Below, piece after piece: positions 8,657 to 25,227 of a DNA stretch of 64,000 nucleotides (positions are counted from its first letter, which is position 1; each line of letters starts with the position of its first letter). The notes below the pieces were generated by a model, which did not search any database, was not told the DNA's origin, and worked only from the letters and a program-made list of their open reading frames with translations. Source of the stretch: Gammaproteobacteria bacterium. Its GTDB lineage: Bacteria > Pseudomonadota > Gammaproteobacteria > Pseudomonadales > Azotimanducaceae. The stretch covers positions 124,001-188,000 of the forward strand of contig VXNM01000011.1 in assembly GCA_009840545.1 (NCBI GenBank), in the 5' to 3' direction. The position numbers and the translations under genes were made by a program.

Positions 8657-8779
8657 CTTCCTCCGAACCTAGACTAATAGGGCGTTCATGAACTGCAAGA
8701 GTTCGAATGTCTCTGTGCGTAAACTCTCAGTGGTTGACCGCACAACAAATACTAGACTCAAACTTTTCTGAACTTGTCG

Positions 8780-11700
8780 ATGAAGTTACGACTGCTCATT
8801 CTGCTCATCCTAACGATTGGTTTTCTTGCGACCGGATGCAATAGCCGCATTTCTCATGCCGAAATTGAACGCAACGACTTGGGTGTTGCACAGATGGGTC
8901 AATACAACTACAAGATCGCTCACGCCACTTTTCAAGAGCTGGTCAAAGATCGTCCGGATTGGATTGAAGCACGCGTTAACTATGCAATTGCGACGCTTAA
9001 TAGACAAGACGAAGGCGACGAACATCAAGCACTTGAGATACTAAGTTCCGTGCTCGACGAGCAACCGGAAAATGTTCGAGCACTATATACCTCCGGAGTG
9101 ATCACCTTTCATCTGGGCAAAACTGAGGAGGCTCTACGATTCTTCAGCAAGACGGTCGAGATCGATCCTAACGACGCGTACGCCGTGTATTTCCTGGGCC
9201 AAACGCATCTGCAGCTCCAGCAGTTTGAACAAGCTCAAAAATGGCTCTTGCAATCCATCGATCTGGATCCCTATCTAACAAGCGGATATTGGGCAGGCAG
9301 TCAAACCGCTCGGCGTTTGGGAGATACAGATTTGGCCGAAGAGCTAGTCTCTTCCTACAACCGACTTAAGGCCAATCCTGCATCCCGAACGGCATCTATT
9401 AACTACTTACAGATGGGGCCGAAAGCGGAAGCGGTAGCGCTAGGACAGGTGGAAGTATTGCCGGCAGCGAAACCTGCAGGCAGTGTGTTTGGAGAGGTCA
9501 CGTCCTTGTTGGAGTCAACGAAGAACCATCGGAGTATCGCATTCAATGTGCGAACAAACTCACCTATAACGGACGTCTTTCTTCCGTCAAGGAACGATAT
9601 CGACTGGTATTTCTTGGATAGAGATTCACTAGCTCTTGTGCTACATCAGTCGATCTCGATTGGTGGAGTCGAGAGCGTTGCGCTAGGAGACGTTGACAAC
9701 AATGGATCTACCGACTTGGTGGCTTGTGGAAAAGAGGGTGTTCATTGGATACGGCTAAGTGAGGTGGCATCCAACACCGACGATGGACTCACGTTGATTT
9801 CCTCGCGAAGCTGCTTTGCTTCGGCACTTGTCGATTCTGACCATGATGGTGATCTCGACGTGGTATTTGCACGCGAGCGAGGGGTGTCGCAGCTCACAAA
9901 TCTTCGCGACGAACAAATGCGTTTTGAAGAGCTCATTATTGTCGATGCAAGCAAACCTGAAACCGTTATTGCAATCGTCGCTTCTGACCTCGATTCGGAC
10001 CGAGATCTCGATATCTTGATTCGCTACGAAGGATCTTCCACAACGGTGCTTCAAAACGATAGAACGTGGAAATATGTTCCATTTCCAGGTGCAGATGGAC
10101 TTGAGGATGCTGGCATCGGTCCCTTTGTTGCTGCCGACATAGATAGCGATGGTTTTCCTGATATCGTTGGGGTGGCCAATGACAACCGTCTTGTCGCGTT
10201 CTCCTTTGACGGCTCTGTTCTAACCCAAAAAAATCATCAATATCTAAAAGAGGGCAATTCGGAAGACATCGTGGGCCTTGCCGCCGTAGATGTTGTTGGA
10301 GACGGGAACTTGGACCTGTTAGTTCATACTTCACATAAAGTGTTTGTATTGTTCGGCAATGGCCAATCCGAAAGTCTAGACGGATTACAAGATTCCGCAT
10401 TGAAATCGGCAGTCCCGACTTATGTAAACGCTAGCGAAGGACCGGGAATGCTCTTGCTGAACGAATCCGGTATTAGCTTTGTTGCGCCGGGAATAGGGAG
10501 GTTCGAGTTCTTGGCGGCTAATCCTGTTGGAGAACGAGACGCAAGCCAGATGCGTTCCAATGCTTCCGGTATTGGTACACGAGCCAAGCTAAGAGTGGCA
10601 GGTGAGTGGTCCATTCAAGATCGTATCAACAATCACTCGGGTCCCAATCAGAGCCTTATGCCCTTGATGTTTGGACTAAGAGGGCACGAATCCGCAAATC
10701 ACCTTGTATTGGAGTGGCCGGATGGAGTATTGCAAACAGAGATAGGGCTCAACGCCAAAAAGCTTCACCTTGTTCAGGAAACCGAACGACAATTGGCGAG
10801 TTGTCCGGTTGTATTTGCTTGGGACGGGAAGAAGTATGAGTTTGTCAGTGATGTCTTGGGAGTTGCAGCTCTCGGATTTCTGGTTGAGCCAGGAAAGTAC
10901 GCAAGTCCCCGATCAAAGGAACGTTTTCGAGTCGATGAAGAAATGTTGCAACCCAAGGACGGCAACTATGTCGTAAAGATTGGCGAACCCATGGAGGAAA
11001 CGCTGTTTCTCGACGCTGCCTATATTGAAGTTATTGATGTACCAGAGGGATGGGGAGTTGTTCTGGACGAGCGACTTGCTACTTCGCCGCCAGACGCAAC
11101 TGGAAGAATCATTACTTTTCAAGAGGAGACCTTGCCGGACAGGGCTACCAACGGATCTGGTGCAGACATCTCTGCGGAGATCAGGCTTCAAGACCACGAC
11201 GCGCCGGACCCAGGTCCCGTTGACTCTCGATTTATTGGACGTCTCGAGAGTGATTTTGAAATCACTCTTTGGTTCGAAGAGAGTCTCCCTGTAGCGAATC
11301 AAGTGTTGGTAGCAGATGGGTGGATGGAGTACCCGTACTCCCAAACATCCTTTAGTGCTTGGCAAGCCAAGGCTGAATATAGTCCCCCCACTCTTGAAGC
11401 CTTAACCGCTGATGGCAGCTGGACGTTGTTGCTAGAGAGTTTTGGTTACCCCGCTGGGATGCCCCGAGAAATGGCCGTTCCACTTCCTGAACTGCCCCGA
11501 AATACCATTGCGCTGCGACTGAGATCTAATCTTGAAATCTATTGGGATCGAATCAGGTTGGTTACTGAGGCAATTCCCCCGCCATCAATGCAAGTGGGAC
11601 GCCTAGAACCTGTAATAGCGGTTGTGAGACGATCAGGATTTGCAAAAAGAACAACAGGCGAACACCGCTTGCCGTATTACGACTACGACGACCGGAGTCC

Positions 11701-12028
11701 TTATTGGGATGCCAAGTACCAAGAGGGTTCTTACACGGCATATGGCAATGCCATCGAGTTAGTAGCCGAGCCTGACGGTGCAGTGGCCATCGTAGGAAGC
11801 GGAGAAGAAGTTCATCTAGAGTTCGAAGCGATGAGTTCCACAGAGCATGGAATGAACCGTCACTTTGTGCTTGAGTTCAATGGTTGGGCTCGAGATTTGG
11901 ATTTGTACACCCGACATGCTGAGACTGTTCAACCCCTTTCGTGGCTACGTGATCTGCCTCCCGAGAAACGTAAACAAGCGGAACGCTTGCACGAGAGTCA
12001 CAATGTTCGATTCGAACGGGGCTACTAA
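8780..12028 (+). CDS. giant lipoprotein with TPR, beta-propeller and ASPIC/UnbV domains
   Basis: This 1082-residue exported protein has a lipoprotein signal (MKLRLLILLILTIGFLATGC, cysteine at residue 20). Residues 30-210 hold tetratricopeptide repeats (ARVNYAIATLNRQ, ALRFFSKTVEIDPNDAYAVYFLG). From about 265 to 560 there are FG-GAP/VCBS-type propeller blades with calcium-like loops such as DSDHDGDLD and DSDRDLD. An ASPIC/UnbV-like segment follows (SGIGTRAKLRVAG, VLEWPDGV, about 580-660). The last 400 residues form a domain beginning CPVVFAWDGKKYEFVSDVLG that I associate with other TPR-propeller proteins but cannot name. A TTG lies 6 bp upstream in frame; ATG at 8780 is preferred. The gene stands alone after the tRNA. 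A cell-surface or periplasmic binding role is inferred only. Confidence 0.82.
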   Translation: MKLRLLILLILTIGFLATGCNSRISHAEIERNDLGVAQMGQYNYKIAHATFQELVKDRPDWIEARVNYAIATLNRQDEGDEHQALEILSSVLDEQPENVRALYTSGVITFHLGKTEEALRFFSKTVEIDPNDAYAVYFLGQTHLQLQQFEQAQKWLLQSIDLDPYLTSGYWAGSQTARRLGDTDLAEELVSSYNRLKANPASRTASINYLQMGPKAEAVALGQVEVLPAAKPAGSVFGEVTSLLESTKNHRSIAFNVRTNSPITDVFLPSRNDIDWYFLDRDSLALVLHQSISIGGVESVALGDVDNNGSTDLVACGKEGVHWIRLSEVASNTDDGLTLISSRSCFASALVDSDHDGDLDVVFARERGVSQLTNLRDEQMRFEELIIVDASKPETVIAIVASDLDSDRDLDILIRYEGSSTTVLQNDRTWKYVPFPGADGLEDAGIGPFVAADIDSDGFPDIVGVANDNRLVAFSFDGSVLTQKNHQYLKEGNSEDIVGLAAVDVVGDGNLDLLVHTSHKVFVLFGNGQSESLDGLQDSALKSAVPTYVNASEGPGMLLLNESGISFVAPGIGRFEFLAANPVGERDASQMRSNASGIGTRAKLRVAGEWSIQDRINNHSGPNQSLMPLMFGLRGHESANHLVLEWPDGVLQTEIGLNAKKLHLVQETERQLASCPVVFAWDGKKYEFVSDVLGVAALGFLVEPGKYASPRSKERFRVDEEMLQPKDGNYVVKIGEPMEETLFLDAAYIEVIDVPEGWGVVLDERLATSPPDATGRIITFQEETLPDRATNGSGADISAEIRLQDHDAPDPGPVDSRFIGRLESDFEITLWFEESLPVANQVLVADGWMEYPYSQTSFSAWQAKAEYSPPTLEALTADGSWTLLLESFGYPAGMPREMAVPLPELPRNTIALRLRSNLEIYWDRIRLVTEAIPPPSMQVGRLEPVIAVVRRSGFAKRTTGEHRLPYYDYDDRSPYWDAKYQEGSYTAYGNAIELVAEPDGAVAIVGSGEEVHLEFEAMSSTEHGMNRHFVLEFNGWARDLDLYTRHAETVQPLSWLRDLPPEKRKQAERLHESHNVRFERGY

Positions 12029-12528: not shown

Positions 12529-13644
12529 CTACTCACCTCTGGTCTGTCGTTGGGCATCTTCCATTTCAGATCGAGTCACTTGTCCGTCGTCATCTGAATC
12601 CAATCGTTCAAATCTATTGGAGAGCCCTTCCTGCAACTTGTCAATGGCTTCTTGGCGTTCACCTTCTGATTCAATTTGATTCATCGATGCGACTCTACGG
12701 CTCAGTCGTCTCTTCATGGCCGAAATGTACTCGTCTTGGCTAATCGATTTGTTGTCGTCTAAGTCCATTCTGTCGAATTCTGATTGCGAAGCCTCCCGAG
12801 TTGGGGCTTCTCTGGACCGTCGTGCGGAATTTAGGTATTCCTCTATGGTCAGCACCGAGTTTCGATCAGTATCCATATAGTCAAATCTCTGTGCGATCCC
12901 TTCTTCGAGTCTTGCTGCGGATTTCAGTGAGCTTGAAGCGGCACGGTCATTGCCACTTGCGGCAGTTCGAGCGGAGAGTCTTCGTTTCATCGCACTGTTA
13001 AACTCATCGAAGCTCATTGCTCCGTTCTGATCCCGGTCGAGTCTCGAGAATACGCCTTCCTGCTGGTCGTGGTTCGAAGCATCTTTCGCTGTATGAGCGC
13101 TCACGTATTCCGTTTGCGACACGGAACCATCCTCATCGGAATCCATTCGATCAAACCGCTGTCTGAGTCCTTCTTCCAACCGACGTTCTTCATTTCTTGA
13201 GGACGAGAGTCTTCGTTTCATTGCGTTTCCGAACTCCTCAAAACTCATGGATCCATCTTGATCTTGATCGAGTCTCAAAAATACCCCTTCTTGCCGGGCT
13301 TGGTCAGAGCCATCTTCCGATGCCATTACACTTACAAACTCCACCTGGGATAATTGTCCGTCTTCGTCCGAATCCATTCGTCCAAATCGTTGCCTAAGTC
13401 CCGATTCCAGCTCCACAAGGCGTCTTGCTGATTCTTCACTCTCGTTCATTGCAGCTTCCAGTTCCTGTAGTCTGATGAACGTACCCACGAATTCATCTCG
13501 AGAAACTAGGTTGTCGTCATTTTGGTCCAATCTATCGAACGACTCTTCCGAGACTTTCCGAATGTCGTTTTCAGCAAAGGCACTAACTGCAGACAAGCAA
13601 GCAGTCAGCGCAATGAGAGTCGCGAGTTTTTCTAACATTTGCAC
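12529..13644 (-). CDS. secreted protein with eight EF-hands
   Basis: This 371-residue protein has a signal peptide (about residues 1-25, ending SAVSAFA). I count eight 12-residue EF-hand calcium loops: DQNDDNLVSRDE, DSDEDGQLSQVE, DQDQDGSMSFEE, DSDEDGSVSQTE, DRDQNGAMSFDE, DTDRNSVLTIEE, DLDDNKSISQDE and DSDDDGQVTRSE. Loops 2-7 fall into three tandem units of about 90 residues, each unit a regular loop followed by one ending in an AMKRRLS-type helix (NAMKRRLS, SAMKRRLS, SAMKRRLS). It is predicted to bind several calcium ions in the periplasm or outside the cell; loops 6 and 7 lack the central glycine and may bind weakly. Function beyond calcium binding is unknown. Confidence 0.85.
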   Translation of the reverse strand: MQMLEKLATLIALTACLSAVSAFAENDIRKVSEESFDRLDQNDDNLVSRDEFVGTFIRLQELEAAMNESEESARRLVELESGLRQRFGRMDSDEDGQLSQVEFVSVMASEDGSDQARQEGVFLRLDQDQDGSMSFEEFGNAMKRRLSSSRNEERRLEEGLRQRFDRMDSDEDGSVSQTEYVSAHTAKDASNHDQQEGVFSRLDRDQNGAMSFDEFNSAMKRRLSARTAASGNDRAASSSLKSAARLEEGIAQRFDYMDTDRNSVLTIEEYLNSARRSREAPTREASQSEFDRMDLDDNKSISQDEYISAMKRRLSRRVASMNQIESEGERQEAIDKLQEGLSNRFERLDSDDDGQVTRSEMEDAQRQTRGE

Positions 13645-20644: not shown

Positions 20645-23401
20645 TTGTTTAGCGCTGTGAACGAACAACGTTCACACACCATCGTTGTTACACCAAGGAT
20701 GCGAGTGCTCCTTCGTGTCGTACTGGCAGTGGTTTCCGTGTTGATCATTAATTCGATCTACCTCGTCAGTATTTCCTTACTTCAATGGTGGAACGATGAA
20801 CCCCTCGAGAATGCGTTCTATCAATCAATGTTTCTTGTTCACTTGTTGCTGGGAATTGGCGTACTTCTTCCCGCACTTGTGTTCATTGGGCTTCATCTTC
20901 GCAGAGCCCATGGCAGGTCCAATCGGATAGCCGTCCGACTAGGACTTGCGACGTTCATATCGGTTCTGGCAGTTTTCGTGTCGGGTATCGCTCTCACACG
21001 AGGACTTCCGCTTCTTGAGATTCGCGAGCCTAGTGCTAGACAAGTCGTTTATTGGATTCATGTCATCGCTCCAATTGCTGCGGTTTGGCTCTTTGTGTTG
21101 CACCGACTAGTAGGACCAAAGATTCGATGGCAGGGAGGACTTGCGGTTGGTCTGACAGCTGTCCTGATAGCCGTTGTAGGCATACATCTACTTTCGCCTC
21201 GATCACCGCAAGCCGAACAAAATGTAGATTTCTTTCCTGCGTTAGTAAGCACTGACACCGGAAACTACCTTTCAGCGTCATCACTCATGATGGATGATTA
21301 CTGCAGATCGTGTCATGCAGACGTACATTCGCAGTGGTCTGTAAGTGCTCATCGCTTTGCGTCATTCAATAATCCCGCCTACGCCTTTGCGGTGAACAAT
21401 ACAAGAGCGAAAGTGTTGGAACGAGATGGAAACGTACATGCCGCACGATTCTGTGCTGGATGTCACGATCCCGTTCCGTTATTCACGGGAGCGTTCGACG
21501 ATCCAGACTTCGATGTCGTCAATGATGTCACGGCGCATGCAGGTATCACATGTATTAGCTGTCACGCAATAGCGGACATAACGGGGCAGCACGGAAACGC
21601 TTCGTATCTTATTGGCGAACCCCAACACTACCCATTTGCACGATCGAGCAACCCATTGTTGCGTTGGGTAAATGGAGTCTTGATCAAGGGCAAGCCATCA
21701 TTCCACAAGAGGACGTTTCTTAAACCGCTACACAAGACACCGGAATTTTGCGGTACTTGCCATAAAGTTCACTTGCCAGAGGAGCTCAATGCGTACAAGT
21801 GGCTTCGAGGACAGAATCATTACGACTCCTTCCTGCTTAGCGGAGTTTCGGGACACGGCGTCGCCAGCTTCTACTATCCCAGCAAAGCAGAGGTAAATTG
21901 CAATGGCTGCCACATGCAATTGGTGGCTTCCGACGACTTTGGCGCAAAGGCGTACGAGGGGTTTTCCGGTCTAGCAGTGAGAGATCACCAATTTCCCTCA
22001 GCGAATACAGCTCTGCCATACATGGTGGGAATACCAATTGACAAACTCGAAGCTCATAGAGACTTTCTCAGAGACTCGTTGAGGGTTGATATCTTCGCTA
22101 TCCGAGAAGGAGACAAATTGGAGGAAGAACTTATTGCACCTCTAAGTGACTACAGAGTAGTTCTCGCGTCGGGAGAAACCTATGTTTTCGATGTCGTACT
22201 GAGAACATTGACATTAGGGCACAAGTTCACAGAGGGCACGTCGGACTCCAACCAAGTGTGGCTGGAAATCAAGGTAGTACACAAGGAAACTCCAATTCTT
22301 TCTAGTGGAGCAATGGATTCAGACGGAGTAGTTGATCCGAACACGCACTTCGTAAATGCATATGTACTCGATCGGTTTGGCAATCGCATCGCGGAACGAA
22401 ATGCAGAGGACATCTTCACCAAACTCTACGATCATCAAATCAATCCGGGAAGTGCTAGTGTCGTTCACTATCGATTGAACATCCCACCGGATCTATCGGG
22501 AGAGTTTGAGATAACAGCGACTCTGAACTACAGAAAATTCGACACAACCTTCCTAAGGGCGTTTAGTGACGATGCCTCTCTGCGCAACGACTTGCCCATA
22601 ACAGTCATCGCAACAGACAATCTGAATGTCACAATTGGATCTACTTTTGAGGCCTCGGCTCGCGCAAACACCGCAGATCAACGAATCGAGACTGAAGTCC
22701 CTGAATGGATGCGTTGGAATGACTATGGAATTGGTTGGTTGACGAAACCGAACAATAGTGCGCTTCGACAGGCTGAGTATGCGTTCACTAAAGTATCGGA
22801 CTTTGGGCGAGGCGAGGGCCATCTCAATGCCGCACGCACCTACCTCAAAGAAGGAAGAGTGGACGAGGCGGCGTTGGAGTTGCAACTCGCGCAACAACTT
22901 GGAGCTTATCCTTGGTCGATAGCGTGGTTCGGAGGCTTGATCGATCTGCAGTCTGGACAATTGGATGAAGCCATTCGCAAATTTGTCGCACTGGTTCAGA
23001 CGGAATTTGGTGAGGCTCGCTCTCGAGGGTTCGACTTTTCCTTGGACTATCGTCTTCGAAACACTCTTGCTAGAACTTACTTTGAACGATCAAAACTCGA
23101 AAATGCTGACTCGAGTCGAATGGAGTGGCTAAATTTGGCAATCGCTGAGTATCAAGCTGCCTTGGAAGTTGATCCTGAGAATGTCGCTGCCCATTACGGA
23201 TTGGCGACAATTTACTCACAACTTGAAGATTCTGAACTTGAGGCTCATCATCGTGCATTGCACGATAAATATCGCGTGGACGACAACGCTCGGGATAGAG
23301 CACTAGCAGAAGCCCGGCGCAATGATCCCGTAGCTGATCACGCTGCAGACGATGTCGTAATTTACGATCTGCAAATAGTTCCAGGATACTCCGAGAATTG
23401 A
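20645..23401 (+). CDS. membrane multiheme cytochrome with TPR tail
   Basis: This is a 918-residue redox protein. About five N-terminal helices span residues 21-182; helix 2 holds His66 and His84 and helix 4 holds His139 and His153, spacings that would suit b-type haem. A periplasmic domain then has five CxxCH c-haem motifs at about residues 220, 270, 303, 369 and 419 (CRSCH, CAGCH, CISCH, CGTCH, CNGCH), resembling cytochrome c-554-like proteins. A beta-rich region follows, then TPR-like repeats near 710-890. The start is uncertain: TTG at 20645, GTG at 20657 or ATG at 20699. Its stop overlaps the next gene. It probably takes quinol electrons across the membrane; the electron acceptor is unknown. 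Confidence 0.82.
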   Translation: MFSAVNEQRSHTIVVTPRMRVLLRVVLAVVSVLIINSIYLVSISLLQWWNDEPLENAFYQSMFLVHLLLGIGVLLPALVFIGLHLRRAHGRSNRIAVRLGLATFISVLAVFVSGIALTRGLPLLEIREPSARQVVYWIHVIAPIAAVWLFVLHRLVGPKIRWQGGLAVGLTAVLIAVVGIHLLSPRSPQAEQNVDFFPALVSTDTGNYLSASSLMMDDYCRSCHADVHSQWSVSAHRFASFNNPAYAFAVNNTRAKVLERDGNVHAARFCAGCHDPVPLFTGAFDDPDFDVVNDVTAHAGITCISCHAIADITGQHGNASYLIGEPQHYPFARSSNPLLRWVNGVLIKGKPSFHKRTFLKPLHKTPEFCGTCHKVHLPEELNAYKWLRGQNHYDSFLLSGVSGHGVASFYYPSKAEVNCNGCHMQLVASDDFGAKAYEGFSGLAVRDHQFPSANTALPYMVGIPIDKLEAHRDFLRDSLRVDIFAIREGDKLEEELIAPLSDYRVVLASGETYVFDVVLRTLTLGHKFTEGTSDSNQVWLEIKVVHKETPILSSGAMDSDGVVDPNTHFVNAYVLDRFGNRIAERNAEDIFTKLYDHQINPGSASVVHYRLNIPPDLSGEFEITATLNYRKFDTTFLRAFSDDASLRNDLPITVIATDNLNVTIGSTFEASARANTADQRIETEVPEWMRWNDYGIGWLTKPNNSALRQAEYAFTKVSDFGRGEGHLNAARTYLKEGRVDEAALELQLAQQLGAYPWSIAWFGGLIDLQSGQLDEAIRKFVALVQTEFGEARSRGFDFSLDYRLRNTLARTYFERSKLENADSSRMEWLNLAIAEYQAALEVDPENVAAHYGLATIYSQLEDSELEAHHRALHDKYRVDDNARDRALAEARRNDPVADHAADDVVIYDLQIVPGYSEN

Positions 23402-25227
23402 CATCCTCGTCGCCTGAGTTACGCCTAAAGCGAGCACTTTGGTTTTCTCTTGCAGTCCTGATTGCAATCGGGATTGTGGTAGTCGCCGCAATAGTATTTC
23501 TGAATCAGGAGAAGTCGGAAGACTTTGGCTTGGAGGCTCAAGACACTGCACCTGTATTGATTGATCAGGGCTTTTCAGCACCTGTCCCGCAGTTTGAAGA
23601 CATAACAGAACAAGCAGGAATTGACTTCGTTCATGTCAATGGGGCCACCGGAGAACGATTGCTTCCTGAAACAATGGGAGGTGGGGTTGCCTTTTTGGAC
23701 TTCGACAACGACGGCGATCAGGACATCATCTTTGTTAATTCCAAGACTTGGGATTGGGATGCTTCTTCGCGAATCGATGCTCGGTCCGCATTGTTTATCA
23801 ACGATGGAGATGGATCGTTTGAGAGAACGGAGAGTGCAGTAATTGAATATCCAATCTATGGAATGGGCATAGCAGTTGGAGACTACGACGGCGATGGTTT
23901 CATCGACGTGTTTATCACTGCAGTTGGAAGAAATCGTCTTCTAAGAAATGTCAATGGGGAGCACTTTGAAGATGTCACGGAGACGATGGGCGTGGCCGGT
24001 CAGCAAGACGCATGGAGTACGTGCGCCTCGTTCTTCGACTATGACAACGACGAAGATTTGGACTTATTCGTGTGCAATTACGTGGAGTGGTCTAGAGACA
24101 GGGATATTGCAGTCGACTACAGATTGGCAGGAATCGGAAGAGCCTATGGACCTCCAACAGATTTCGGAGGAACCAACTCGTACTTGTATCGGAATGATGG
24201 AGACTCATTTACTGACGTCTCAAGTGAGTCGGGCATCCAAGTATTCAACGATGCGACAGGTCAAGCAGCGGGCAAAGCGCTTGCCGTAGTCAATGTCGAC
24301 ATTAACGGAGATGGATCTGAGGATCTAGTCGTCGCAAACGACACGGTTCGAAACTTCGCATTCTTGAATCAGGGCGATGGAACCTTCGTCGAATCAGGAA
24401 TGGAGCTCGGCTTGGCATTCGATACTTCGGGCGCAGCAACTGGCGCAATGGGCATTGATAGTGCCTACTTTTCGAACAGAAATGATCTCGCCCTCGCCAT
24501 TGGCAACTTTGCAAATGAAATGTCGTCGTTCTACGTACGACGTGGCAACCAATCCTTGTTTAGTGACGACGCGATTGTTTCGGGCGTCGGGGCGGCAAGC
24601 CGCAGGGCGTTGACCTTTGGTCTTGTGTTTGTTGACTATGACTTGGATGGAAGACTGGACCTGTTTGCCGCAAATGGTCACGTTGAACCCGAAATCAACC
24701 GCGTTCAATCTAGCCAACACTATGCACAGTCCTCGCAGTTCTGGTGGAATTGCGGCGGAGATTGTGAAAGGAGTTTCATTCTGGCAGATCATGTGGCCTT
24801 GGACTGGGGAAAACCCATCATCGGCCGCGGTACATCCTATGCCGACATTGACGGTGACGCCGACTTAGACCTGCTGGTTACTCAGGTTGGAGGAAAGCCA
24901 CTGCTGTTACGCAATAACACGCCGCAAGACAATTCGTGGTTACGCTTACATCTACATCAAGACTCCCTCAACACCAGTGCATTCGGTGCAACGGTTGTGG
25001 TTAATAGTCAAGGAATCGCTCAGAGACGAACTGTTTCACCAACTAGAAGCTATCTCTCGCAAGTTGAACTTCCTCTTACCTTTGGACTCGGGAAAGCCAT
25101 GAATCCTGTTTCAATTAGTGTGCATTGGCCAGACGGACAACTCTCTGAATGGACAGCCAAACTATCGTCGAAGTCGTACCGAGTACAGAGAAGCAAGACA
25201 TCAGTAGTACTGCAAACACTCGAATAG
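23398..25227 (+). CDS. membrane-anchored CRTAC1/UnbV beta-propeller protein
   Basis: This 609-residue protein has one N-terminal anchor (residues 15-35) and a periplasmic beta-propeller of FG-GAP/VCBS repeats with calcium-type loops (DFDNDGDQD near 100, DYDGDGFID near 162, DIDGDADLD near 483). It ends in an ASPIC/UnbV domain (SAFGATVVVNSQG, RTVSPTRSYLSQVE, VHWPDGQLSEW). It begins at TTG overlapping the cytochrome's TGA, so the two are coupled and should form a complex or act in one process. The large lipoprotein at 8.8 kb carries the same modules in one chain. No enzyme activity is known for this family. Confidence 0.82.
   Translation: MTSSSPELRLKRALWFSLAVLIAIGIVVVAAIVFLNQEKSEDFGLEAQDTAPVLIDQGFSAPVPQFEDITEQAGIDFVHVNGATGERLLPETMGGGVAFLDFDNDGDQDIIFVNSKTWDWDASSRIDARSALFINDGDGSFERTESAVIEYPIYGMGIAVGDYDGDGFIDVFITAVGRNRLLRNVNGEHFEDVTETMGVAGQQDAWSTCASFFDYDNDEDLDLFVCNYVEWSRDRDIAVDYRLAGIGRAYGPPTDFGGTNSYLYRNDGDSFTDVSSESGIQVFNDATGQAAGKALAVVNVDINGDGSEDLVVANDTVRNFAFLNQGDGTFVESGMELGLAFDTSGAATGAMGIDSAYFSNRNDLALAIGNFANEMSSFYVRRGNQSLFSDDAIVSGVGAASRRALTFGLVFVDYDLDGRLDLFAANGHVEPEINRVQSSQHYAQSSQFWWNCGGDCERSFILADHVALDWGKPIIGRGTSYADIDGDADLDLLVTQVGGKPLLLRNNTPQDNSWLRLHLHQDSLNTSAFGATVVVNSQGIAQRRTVSPTRSYLSQVELPLTFGLGKAMNPVSISVHWPDGQLSEWTAKLSSKSYRVQRSKTSVVLQTLE

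Follow-up and report, generated by a model that had tools for sequence, protein, structure and literature searches.

In CbcL, MtrH and MtoC, a single chain carries both a membrane domain of dihaem b type and a multihaem c domain on the periplasmic side (PMC9129911, PMC6295460). According to the sections of these papers that deal with CbcL, its nine c haems are N-terminal and its membrane part, of six helices, is C-terminal (PMC9129911, PMC6295460); ImcH, of the Geobacter group, is described there with three transmembrane helices, one CX3CH motif and six CX2CH motifs (PMC6295460). Propellers have also been placed next to multihaem genes, in hydrazine synthase (HZS)-like clusters in which an FG-GAP/CRTAC1 gene is flanked by hydrazine-synthase-like multihaem genes, some with cytochrome c554 domains (PMC12758564). 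These clusters differ from the locus described here in containing HZS subunits, and the passages of that paper concerning them do not mention a b-type membrane domain (PMC12758564). Our literature search, which covered few subscription papers, found no paper that pairs bacterial CRTAC1/UnbV propellers with a b/c cytochrome.

Here, we analyzed such a pair in a 64,000-nucleotide stretch of gammaproteobacterial DNA (the window; contig VXNM01000011.1). The features considered below are as follows.

20645..23401, plus strand: b/c cytochrome, 918 aa (open reading frame (ORF), Pfam, hydropathy, AlphaFold2, alignment)
20675..21215, plus strand: four-histidine membrane domain of the cytochrome (DUF4405-like below the cut-off; best PDB fold FdnI, not significant)
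21302..21913, plus strand: five-CxxCH stretch, residues 220–423 (motif scan; Pfam Cytochrome_C554 at residues 220–307)
22760..23401, plus strand: TPR tail, from about residue 706 to the end (Pfam, AlphaFold2, fold search)
23398..25227, plus strand: CRTAC1/UnbV FG-GAP propeller, 609 aa, TTG start (ORF, Pfam, structure match, hydropathy)
8774..12028, plus strand: TPR and FG-GAP protein, 1084 aa, lipoprotein-like, the third component (ORF, Pfam, synteny)

Domain layout of the cytochrome

The length of 918 residues is counted from TTG, the first possible start in frame. From the N to the C terminus, the cytochrome consists of five transmembrane helices, all located before residue 185 by both hydropathy and AlphaFold2, five CxxCH motifs, a beta-rich, putatively Ig-like stretch, and a TPR tail (TPR_19, 29.9 bits against a cut-off of 25). 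Leaving aside the beta-rich stretch, this is the outline of the initial annotation, on which ORFs, Pfam and hydropathy agree. The full-length AlphaFold2 model reached a mean pLDDT of 73 and was poor in the c-haem region, which we count against the reading favored below; a fold search with the whole cytochrome returned TPR and similar helical repeats as its best 50 matches, none of them informative for the haem parts.

Compared with the published descriptions of CbcL, the membrane part is N-terminal and has five helices, and there are five c haem sites, a TPR tail and a propeller partner. The layout of CbcL, MtrH and MtoC, with N-terminal c haems and a C-terminal membrane part of mostly six helices, is therefore not that of the window cytochrome, a distinction drawn from the published descriptions. 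Likewise, with five transmembrane helices, five CX2CH and no CX3CH or CX4CH motif, the protein departs from ImcH as described. The NapC/NirT profile gave no match to it at E≤1, and an NrfH model scored 12.1 bits where 134.2 are needed. The initial annotation had been aware of no system described with this architecture. That claim is too broad: CbcL and other fused b/c quinol oxidoreductases are known, and the window protein stands apart from them in the order of its domains, its five helices, its TPR tail and its propeller partner. Of the proteins described so far, CbcL comes closest to it in its proposed mode of action.

Four conserved histidines in the membrane domain

Hydropathy and AlphaFold2 place His66 and His84 in helix 2 and His139 and His153 in helix 4, as proposed initially. 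We aligned 38 sequences (28 orthologues, seven members of a second subfamily and three distant cousins). With gaps left uncounted, His66 was present in all 36 rows that fill its column, and His84, His139 and His153 each in all 37 that fill theirs. The four histidines thus were invariant wherever a residue was aligned, so that the proposal withstood the first of its two refutation tests, lack of conservation of these histidines among orthologues. They make up four of the nine invariant columns among 20 aligned membrane domains. Several sequences entered these counts in part or not at all: L036 and L030 are 5'-truncated, and L036 is absent from the 38-sequence alignment; L019 has no membrane domain; L034 is cut at a contig end; the frame of L035 is interrupted, and just its upstream piece was used in the CxxCH count and the 38-sequence alignment; and L169, whose frame sets in downstream of the membrane part, does not enter the histidine counts. 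The planctomycete regions L207–L225 are a chosen subset of the matches (20 regions fetched, including L206), from which eight orthologues and seven second-subfamily members were aligned; ORF calling gave no usable frame for the cytochrome in L206, L211 and L214, that of L224 is masked by a reverse frame, and L220 is a propeller region.

An AlphaFold2 model of the membrane domain, built with 15 aligned sequences, showed five helices with a mean pLDDT of 83. In helices 56–87 and 128–154 of the full-length model, His66 and His139, and likewise His84 and His153, sit at matching depths, as inferred from helix position. The best Foldseek match was FdnI of formate dehydrogenase N (1kqf_C; probability 0.99, query TM-score 0.45), at a nonsignificant E of 0.16, and no match reached E 0.001. 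STEAP2, a chain of a hydrogenase-1/cytochrome b entry and cytochrome b561 stood lower among the best 50, amid unrelated helical bundles; these bundles and the E-value weigh against the favored reading. In FdnI, paired histidines are spaced 14 residues apart in one helix, as in helix 4 of the window domain. With cytochromes b of the FdnI/HydC type, the window domain thus has in common this spacing and a best, though nonsignificant, fold match; it differs from them in the spacing of 18 residues in helix 2 and in its fusion to c haems.

The nearest Pfam family, DUF4405 (PF14358), scored 19.2 bits against a cut-off of 26.7, which also counts against the favored reading; five of 20 membrane domains matched it at E≤5, the best at 1.1e-5. 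Searching PDB sequences with a profile of the membrane domain returned nothing useful. In sum, the four paired intramembrane histidines expected of a dihaem cytochrome b are conserved in the sequence alignments, and the domain may well bind haem in this way.

The c-haem region

The CxxCH motifs begin at residues 220, 270, 303, 369 and 419, whereas 2000 composition shuffles of the cytochrome yielded a mean of 0.0035 and a maximum of one. The Cytochrome_C554 family (PF13435) matched with 26.4 bits against a cut-off of 20.8, and at E≤0.01 in all 17 homologues scanned. Five CxxCH motifs were present in 20/20 cytochrome sequences spanning the region (a 21st, L036, is truncated), in 7/7 members of the second subfamily and in all but one of the three distant cousins; the exception, L154, has four, with CX4CH at the first site. 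Candidate distal haem c ligands His236, His354, His448 and His526 occur in 38/38 aligned sequences, and His392 (28/38) and His363 (27/38) in orthologues only. For orthologues, this pattern fits c haems with bis-histidine ligation, the ligands being putative as assigned from the alignment. The c module is also found without the b domain, in Granulicella and in L170, so the two modules are not inseparable, a point that speaks against the favored reading.

The cytochrome gene is paired with a propeller gene

The downstream gene belongs to the CRTAC1/UnbV family (PF07593, PF13517), with UnbV_ASPIC at 55.2 bits against 23.4 and FG-GAP_3 at 109 against 26.9, and the human CRTAC1 structure 9etn matches its product at E 4e-14. 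Because the protein has a single N-terminal hydrophobic segment (residues 17–35), it is probably membrane-anchored. Probable anchoring and co-translation with a b/c cytochrome distinguish it from CRTAC1/UnbV propellers generally. Its TTG start overlaps the cytochrome stop by 4 nt (TTGA), as first annotated. In a survey of mechanical ORF tables with the earliest start taken, overlaps of 4 nt also occurred at L019, L020, L023, L024, L216 and L225 and one of 1 nt at L003, and the remaining pair loci had a gap or an ambiguous start.

The initial annotation called for a search for the adjacent pair in other genomes. At 20 loci (18 from a contig scan plus L002 and L003), the propeller lay directly downstream on the same strand in 14 (L002, L003, L019, L020, L023, L024, L026, L028–L033 and L036). 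At L027, it lies upstream of the cytochrome on the opposite strand and occupies two frames; no propeller was found within ~6 kb of the cytochrome at L021 and L035 or within the 1.3 kb available at L025; and the neighborhoods of L022 and L034 run into contig ends. A family member was nevertheless found at E≤1e-100 in all 20 host genomes. In those of L022, L025 and L035, a strong propeller (777–828 bits) is on another contig. Counted against the favored reading are the weaker family members, at 437 and 343 bits, that were all that was found for L021 (genome G523) and L034 (genome G535), and this separation of a strong propeller from the cytochrome contig in G527, G536 and G524, although in G524 the cytochrome contig ends 141 nt past the gene.

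The same association was seen in a planctomycete phylum, to which G528 belongs (a Planctomycetaceae record, host of L026) and of which 199 genomes were searched. Here, the cytochrome matched at E≤1e-100 in 51 genomes, comprising 28 loci above 1000 bits, taken as orthologues, and 24 at 400–520 bits, taken as a second subfamily. A propeller at E≤1e-140 was present in 27 of the 28 genomes with an orthologue, and in 23 of 28 it was directly downstream on the same strand, at a gap of 45–583 nt; in the second subfamily, it was downstream in 15 of 24 loci. Five of the 28 orthologous cytochromes have no adjoining propeller, and in one of these genomes, G715, no propeller was found at all, which is a count against. 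Conversely, a propeller scoring 680 bits or more was found in 28 genomes, of which 27 carry an orthologous cytochrome; the exception, also counted against, is G623, in which none was found. The second refutation test of the initial annotation, that the propeller might occur mostly without the cytochrome, is thus not borne out. Over all matches, 43 genomes had both genes, eight the cytochrome only, six the propeller only and 142 neither (Fisher p 7e-29, a value that ignores relatedness). The distant cousins L168, L171 and L154, which share 26–28% identity and have no TPR, adjoin FG-GAP proteins of 890–1270 aa, and Pfam confirmed UnbV in those of L171 and L154.

Distribution and descent

By their record labels, the 18 loci of the contig scan came from Gammaproteobacteria, Pseudomonadales, Chromatiales, Verrucomicrobia (including one Akkermansia), Planctomycetota groups and Acidobacteriota/Thermoanaerobaculia, two of them labelled uncultured bacterium only, and two further full-length cytochromes were found in the window's own genus and family. 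The two verrucomicrobial records L021 and L035 show a near-identical gene order around the cytochrome. Among 145 genomes of the window's order, 17 had some cytochrome match and three a full-length one; a propeller at E≤1e-100 (best eight candidates per genome scored) occurred in the same three. In a phylum-wide sample of 398 genomes, the cytochrome was matched at E≤1e-20 in two, that of the window and another that carries a distant cousin. Absences in these genome searches are not firm, because few candidates were scored per genome (the best two in the phylum-wide sample and four or six in the planctomycete phylum). In a quick midpoint-rooted tree without support values, the window group is nested among planctomycete sequences, and this placement suggests that the cytochrome may have been transferred into the window's lineage.

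A third component co-occurs with the cytochrome

A protein that was not part of the initial annotation combines a lipoprotein-like N terminus, TPRs, FG-GAP repeats and a subthreshold UnbV match. In the window, its gene is not adjacent to the cytochrome gene, and a homologue is directly upstream of the cytochrome at seven loci (L002, L020, L026, L028, L031, L032 and L034). It was matched at E≤1e-30 in 17 of the 20 cytochrome genomes (11 at E=0, one split into two pieces and five in the C-terminal part only) and, within the window's order, at E≤1e-20 in exactly the three of 145 genomes with a full-length cytochrome (best five candidates per genome scored). Its C-terminal region had no PDB sequence match at E≤1. 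Between this gene and an arginase-family gene, the window encodes a 371-aa EF-hand-rich protein (12529–13644, minus strand).

Proposed mechanism

We consider it likely that the cytochrome is an inner-membrane dihaem-b/pentahaem-c protein that transfers electrons between quinone and periplasm, and that the propeller and TPR parts, with the third component where present, dock a periplasmic partner. Haem c attachment is periplasmic; this and the odd number of helices place the C-terminal part of the cytochrome in the periplasm and the N terminus inside. The five-helix domain would most likely hold two b haems, one between His66 and His139 near the periplasmic side and one between His84 and His153 near the cytoplasmic side. 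Electrons would pass between the quinone pool and the five periplasmic c haems, in either direction, and the TPR tail, the co-translated, probably anchored propeller and, where present, the TPR/propeller third component would form a docking site for the partner. The initial annotation had proposed a single complex, docked to the propeller, carrying electrons from the quinone pool to periplasmic haems; the invariant histidines, the nonsignificant best fold match to FdnI and the conserved adjacency support it in part. The computation shows the domain layout, the conserved histidines, the gene pairing and the co-occurrence of the third component, from which haem binding and pairing, quinone as the substrate, complex formation and propeller anchoring go one step further and are inferred.

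Iron uptake and other alternatives

As for the terminal reaction, our best current guess is periplasmic iron redox chemistry. A possible but doubtful alternative goes further and specifies the reaction that the favored reading leaves open: the cytochrome would be a redox module for the uptake of iron or another metal, moving electrons between quinones and periplasmic iron, as split relatives in FTR1 operons may do, with the propeller and TPR proteins working with TonB receptors. Evidence for it comes from these relatives, in which the two modules are separate. In Shinella HZN7 and Nitratiruptor plasmids, genes for an imelysin, a four-histidine membrane protein, a pentahaem cytochrome and FTR1 follow one another; the same set occurs in Shinella PSBB067, and the Nitratiruptor copy is beside a ferritin gene. 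The four histidines of the Shinella protein, which is named DUF4405 in its record and likewise scores only 23.7 bits against that family, and of the 141-aa Nitratiruptor protein align with those of the window at the same 18/14 spacing. These operons thus share with the window the four-histidine and five-CxxCH modules in neighboring genes, and differ in keeping them separate, in having no TPR or, in the annotated stretch, CRTAC1, and in their iron-uptake context; it is possible that they represent an electron-linked iron-uptake system. We found no paper describing such a combination of imelysin, FTR1 and multihaem cytochrome among the literature that our search covered. The operons span L227 4206–9677, L228 4353–9857 and L229 4392–9342. 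In Aeromonas (L230 3339–7147), a 989-aa relative with six CxxCH motifs directly precedes an FTR1-like gene.

TonB receptors point in the same direction. Plug domains were confirmed beside CRTAC1 genes in G000 and, in G105, directly behind the cytochrome-propeller pair. Receptors also adjoin paralogous CRTAC1/TPR genes in both of these genomes and in Granulicella tundricola, in which a gene for a b-less pentahaem-TPR protein and a neighboring CRTAC1 gene share a cluster with a TonB receptor. Further CRTAC1 genes occur in G000, G105, G076 and the genome of L020, most of those inspected being paired with TPR proteins. Against the iron alternative, the c module of the window cytochrome shares only 22–25% identity with the split relatives, TonB receptors are a broad class, and tblastn with the Shinella and Nitratiruptor FTR1 and imelysin against 230 loci and the window found matches only in the plasmid loci L227–L230, so that no fused cytochrome among these loci has either gene as a neighbor. 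Their low identity notwithstanding, the split relatives are the most specific functional lead. More specific, and rather unlikely as a whole, is the idea that cytochrome, anchored propeller and TPR/propeller lipoprotein form an undescribed quinone-linked machine that reduces or oxidizes iron or another nutrient delivered by TonB receptors.

Other neighborhoods of these families were recorded in passing. CRTAC1 and TPR pairs are repeated at L102 (6269–17001, with a confirmed TonB plug beside them), L103–L105, L107, L108 and L113–L115. At L173 (4766–8204) and L174 (5549–8976), a small membrane protein with aligned histidines adjoins a large six-CxxCH cytochrome, and L173 also has a YNCE-type propeller by Pfam, another pairing of a propeller with b/c-like proteins. 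At the verrucomicrobial L116 (6646–10260) and L118 (3–3361), a CxxCH/copper-monooxygenase-like gene is directly followed by a strong propeller gene.

That the protein is a CbcL-like quinol oxidase of extracellular electron transfer, feeding outer-membrane cytochromes, appears improbable to us. The general design of dihaem b and multihaem c in one chain is the same as in the published accounts of CbcL (PMC9129911, PMC6295460), but ORF tables covering a few kb around the fused cytochromes contained no other ORF with more than two CxxCH motifs and few with any, and the partners are haem-free propellers. Still weaker, and very improbable, is a role as electron donor to periplasmic redoxin/haem/copper-monooxygenase-like proteins: the strong unlinked propellers of G536 and G527 are directly downstream of such a gene and a homologue at E≤1e-10 is present in 13 of the 20 cytochrome genomes, but none was found in the other seven, another query at E≤1e-20 hit nine of the 145 order genomes, seven of them without a full-length cytochrome, and the Cu2_monoox_C match is below the cut-off. 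Finally, the view that the four histidines are structural or metal sites without haem, in a simple membrane-anchored periplasmic cytochrome c, draws on b-less relatives with haems and TPRs such as that of Granulicella and is the least credible, given that the paired intramembrane histidines are invariant over all subfamilies and that the best fold match, at E 0.16, is a dihaem b protein.

Overall, a likely quinone-to-periplasm electron-transfer protein is thus encoded in a conserved operon with a propeller, and this operon makes the role of bacterial CRTAC1/UnbV propellers directly testable. It points to a quinone-linked periplasmic electron route, distinct in architecture from CbcL and ImcH, in Planctomycetota, Verrucomicrobiota, Acidobacteriota and some Gammaproteobacteria, and the split relatives in iron-uptake operons suggest a supply of electrons for FTR1-type transport. 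If the nutrient-redox machine outlined above were real, the CRTAC1/UnbV propellers of bacteria would thereby gain a defined biochemical partner.
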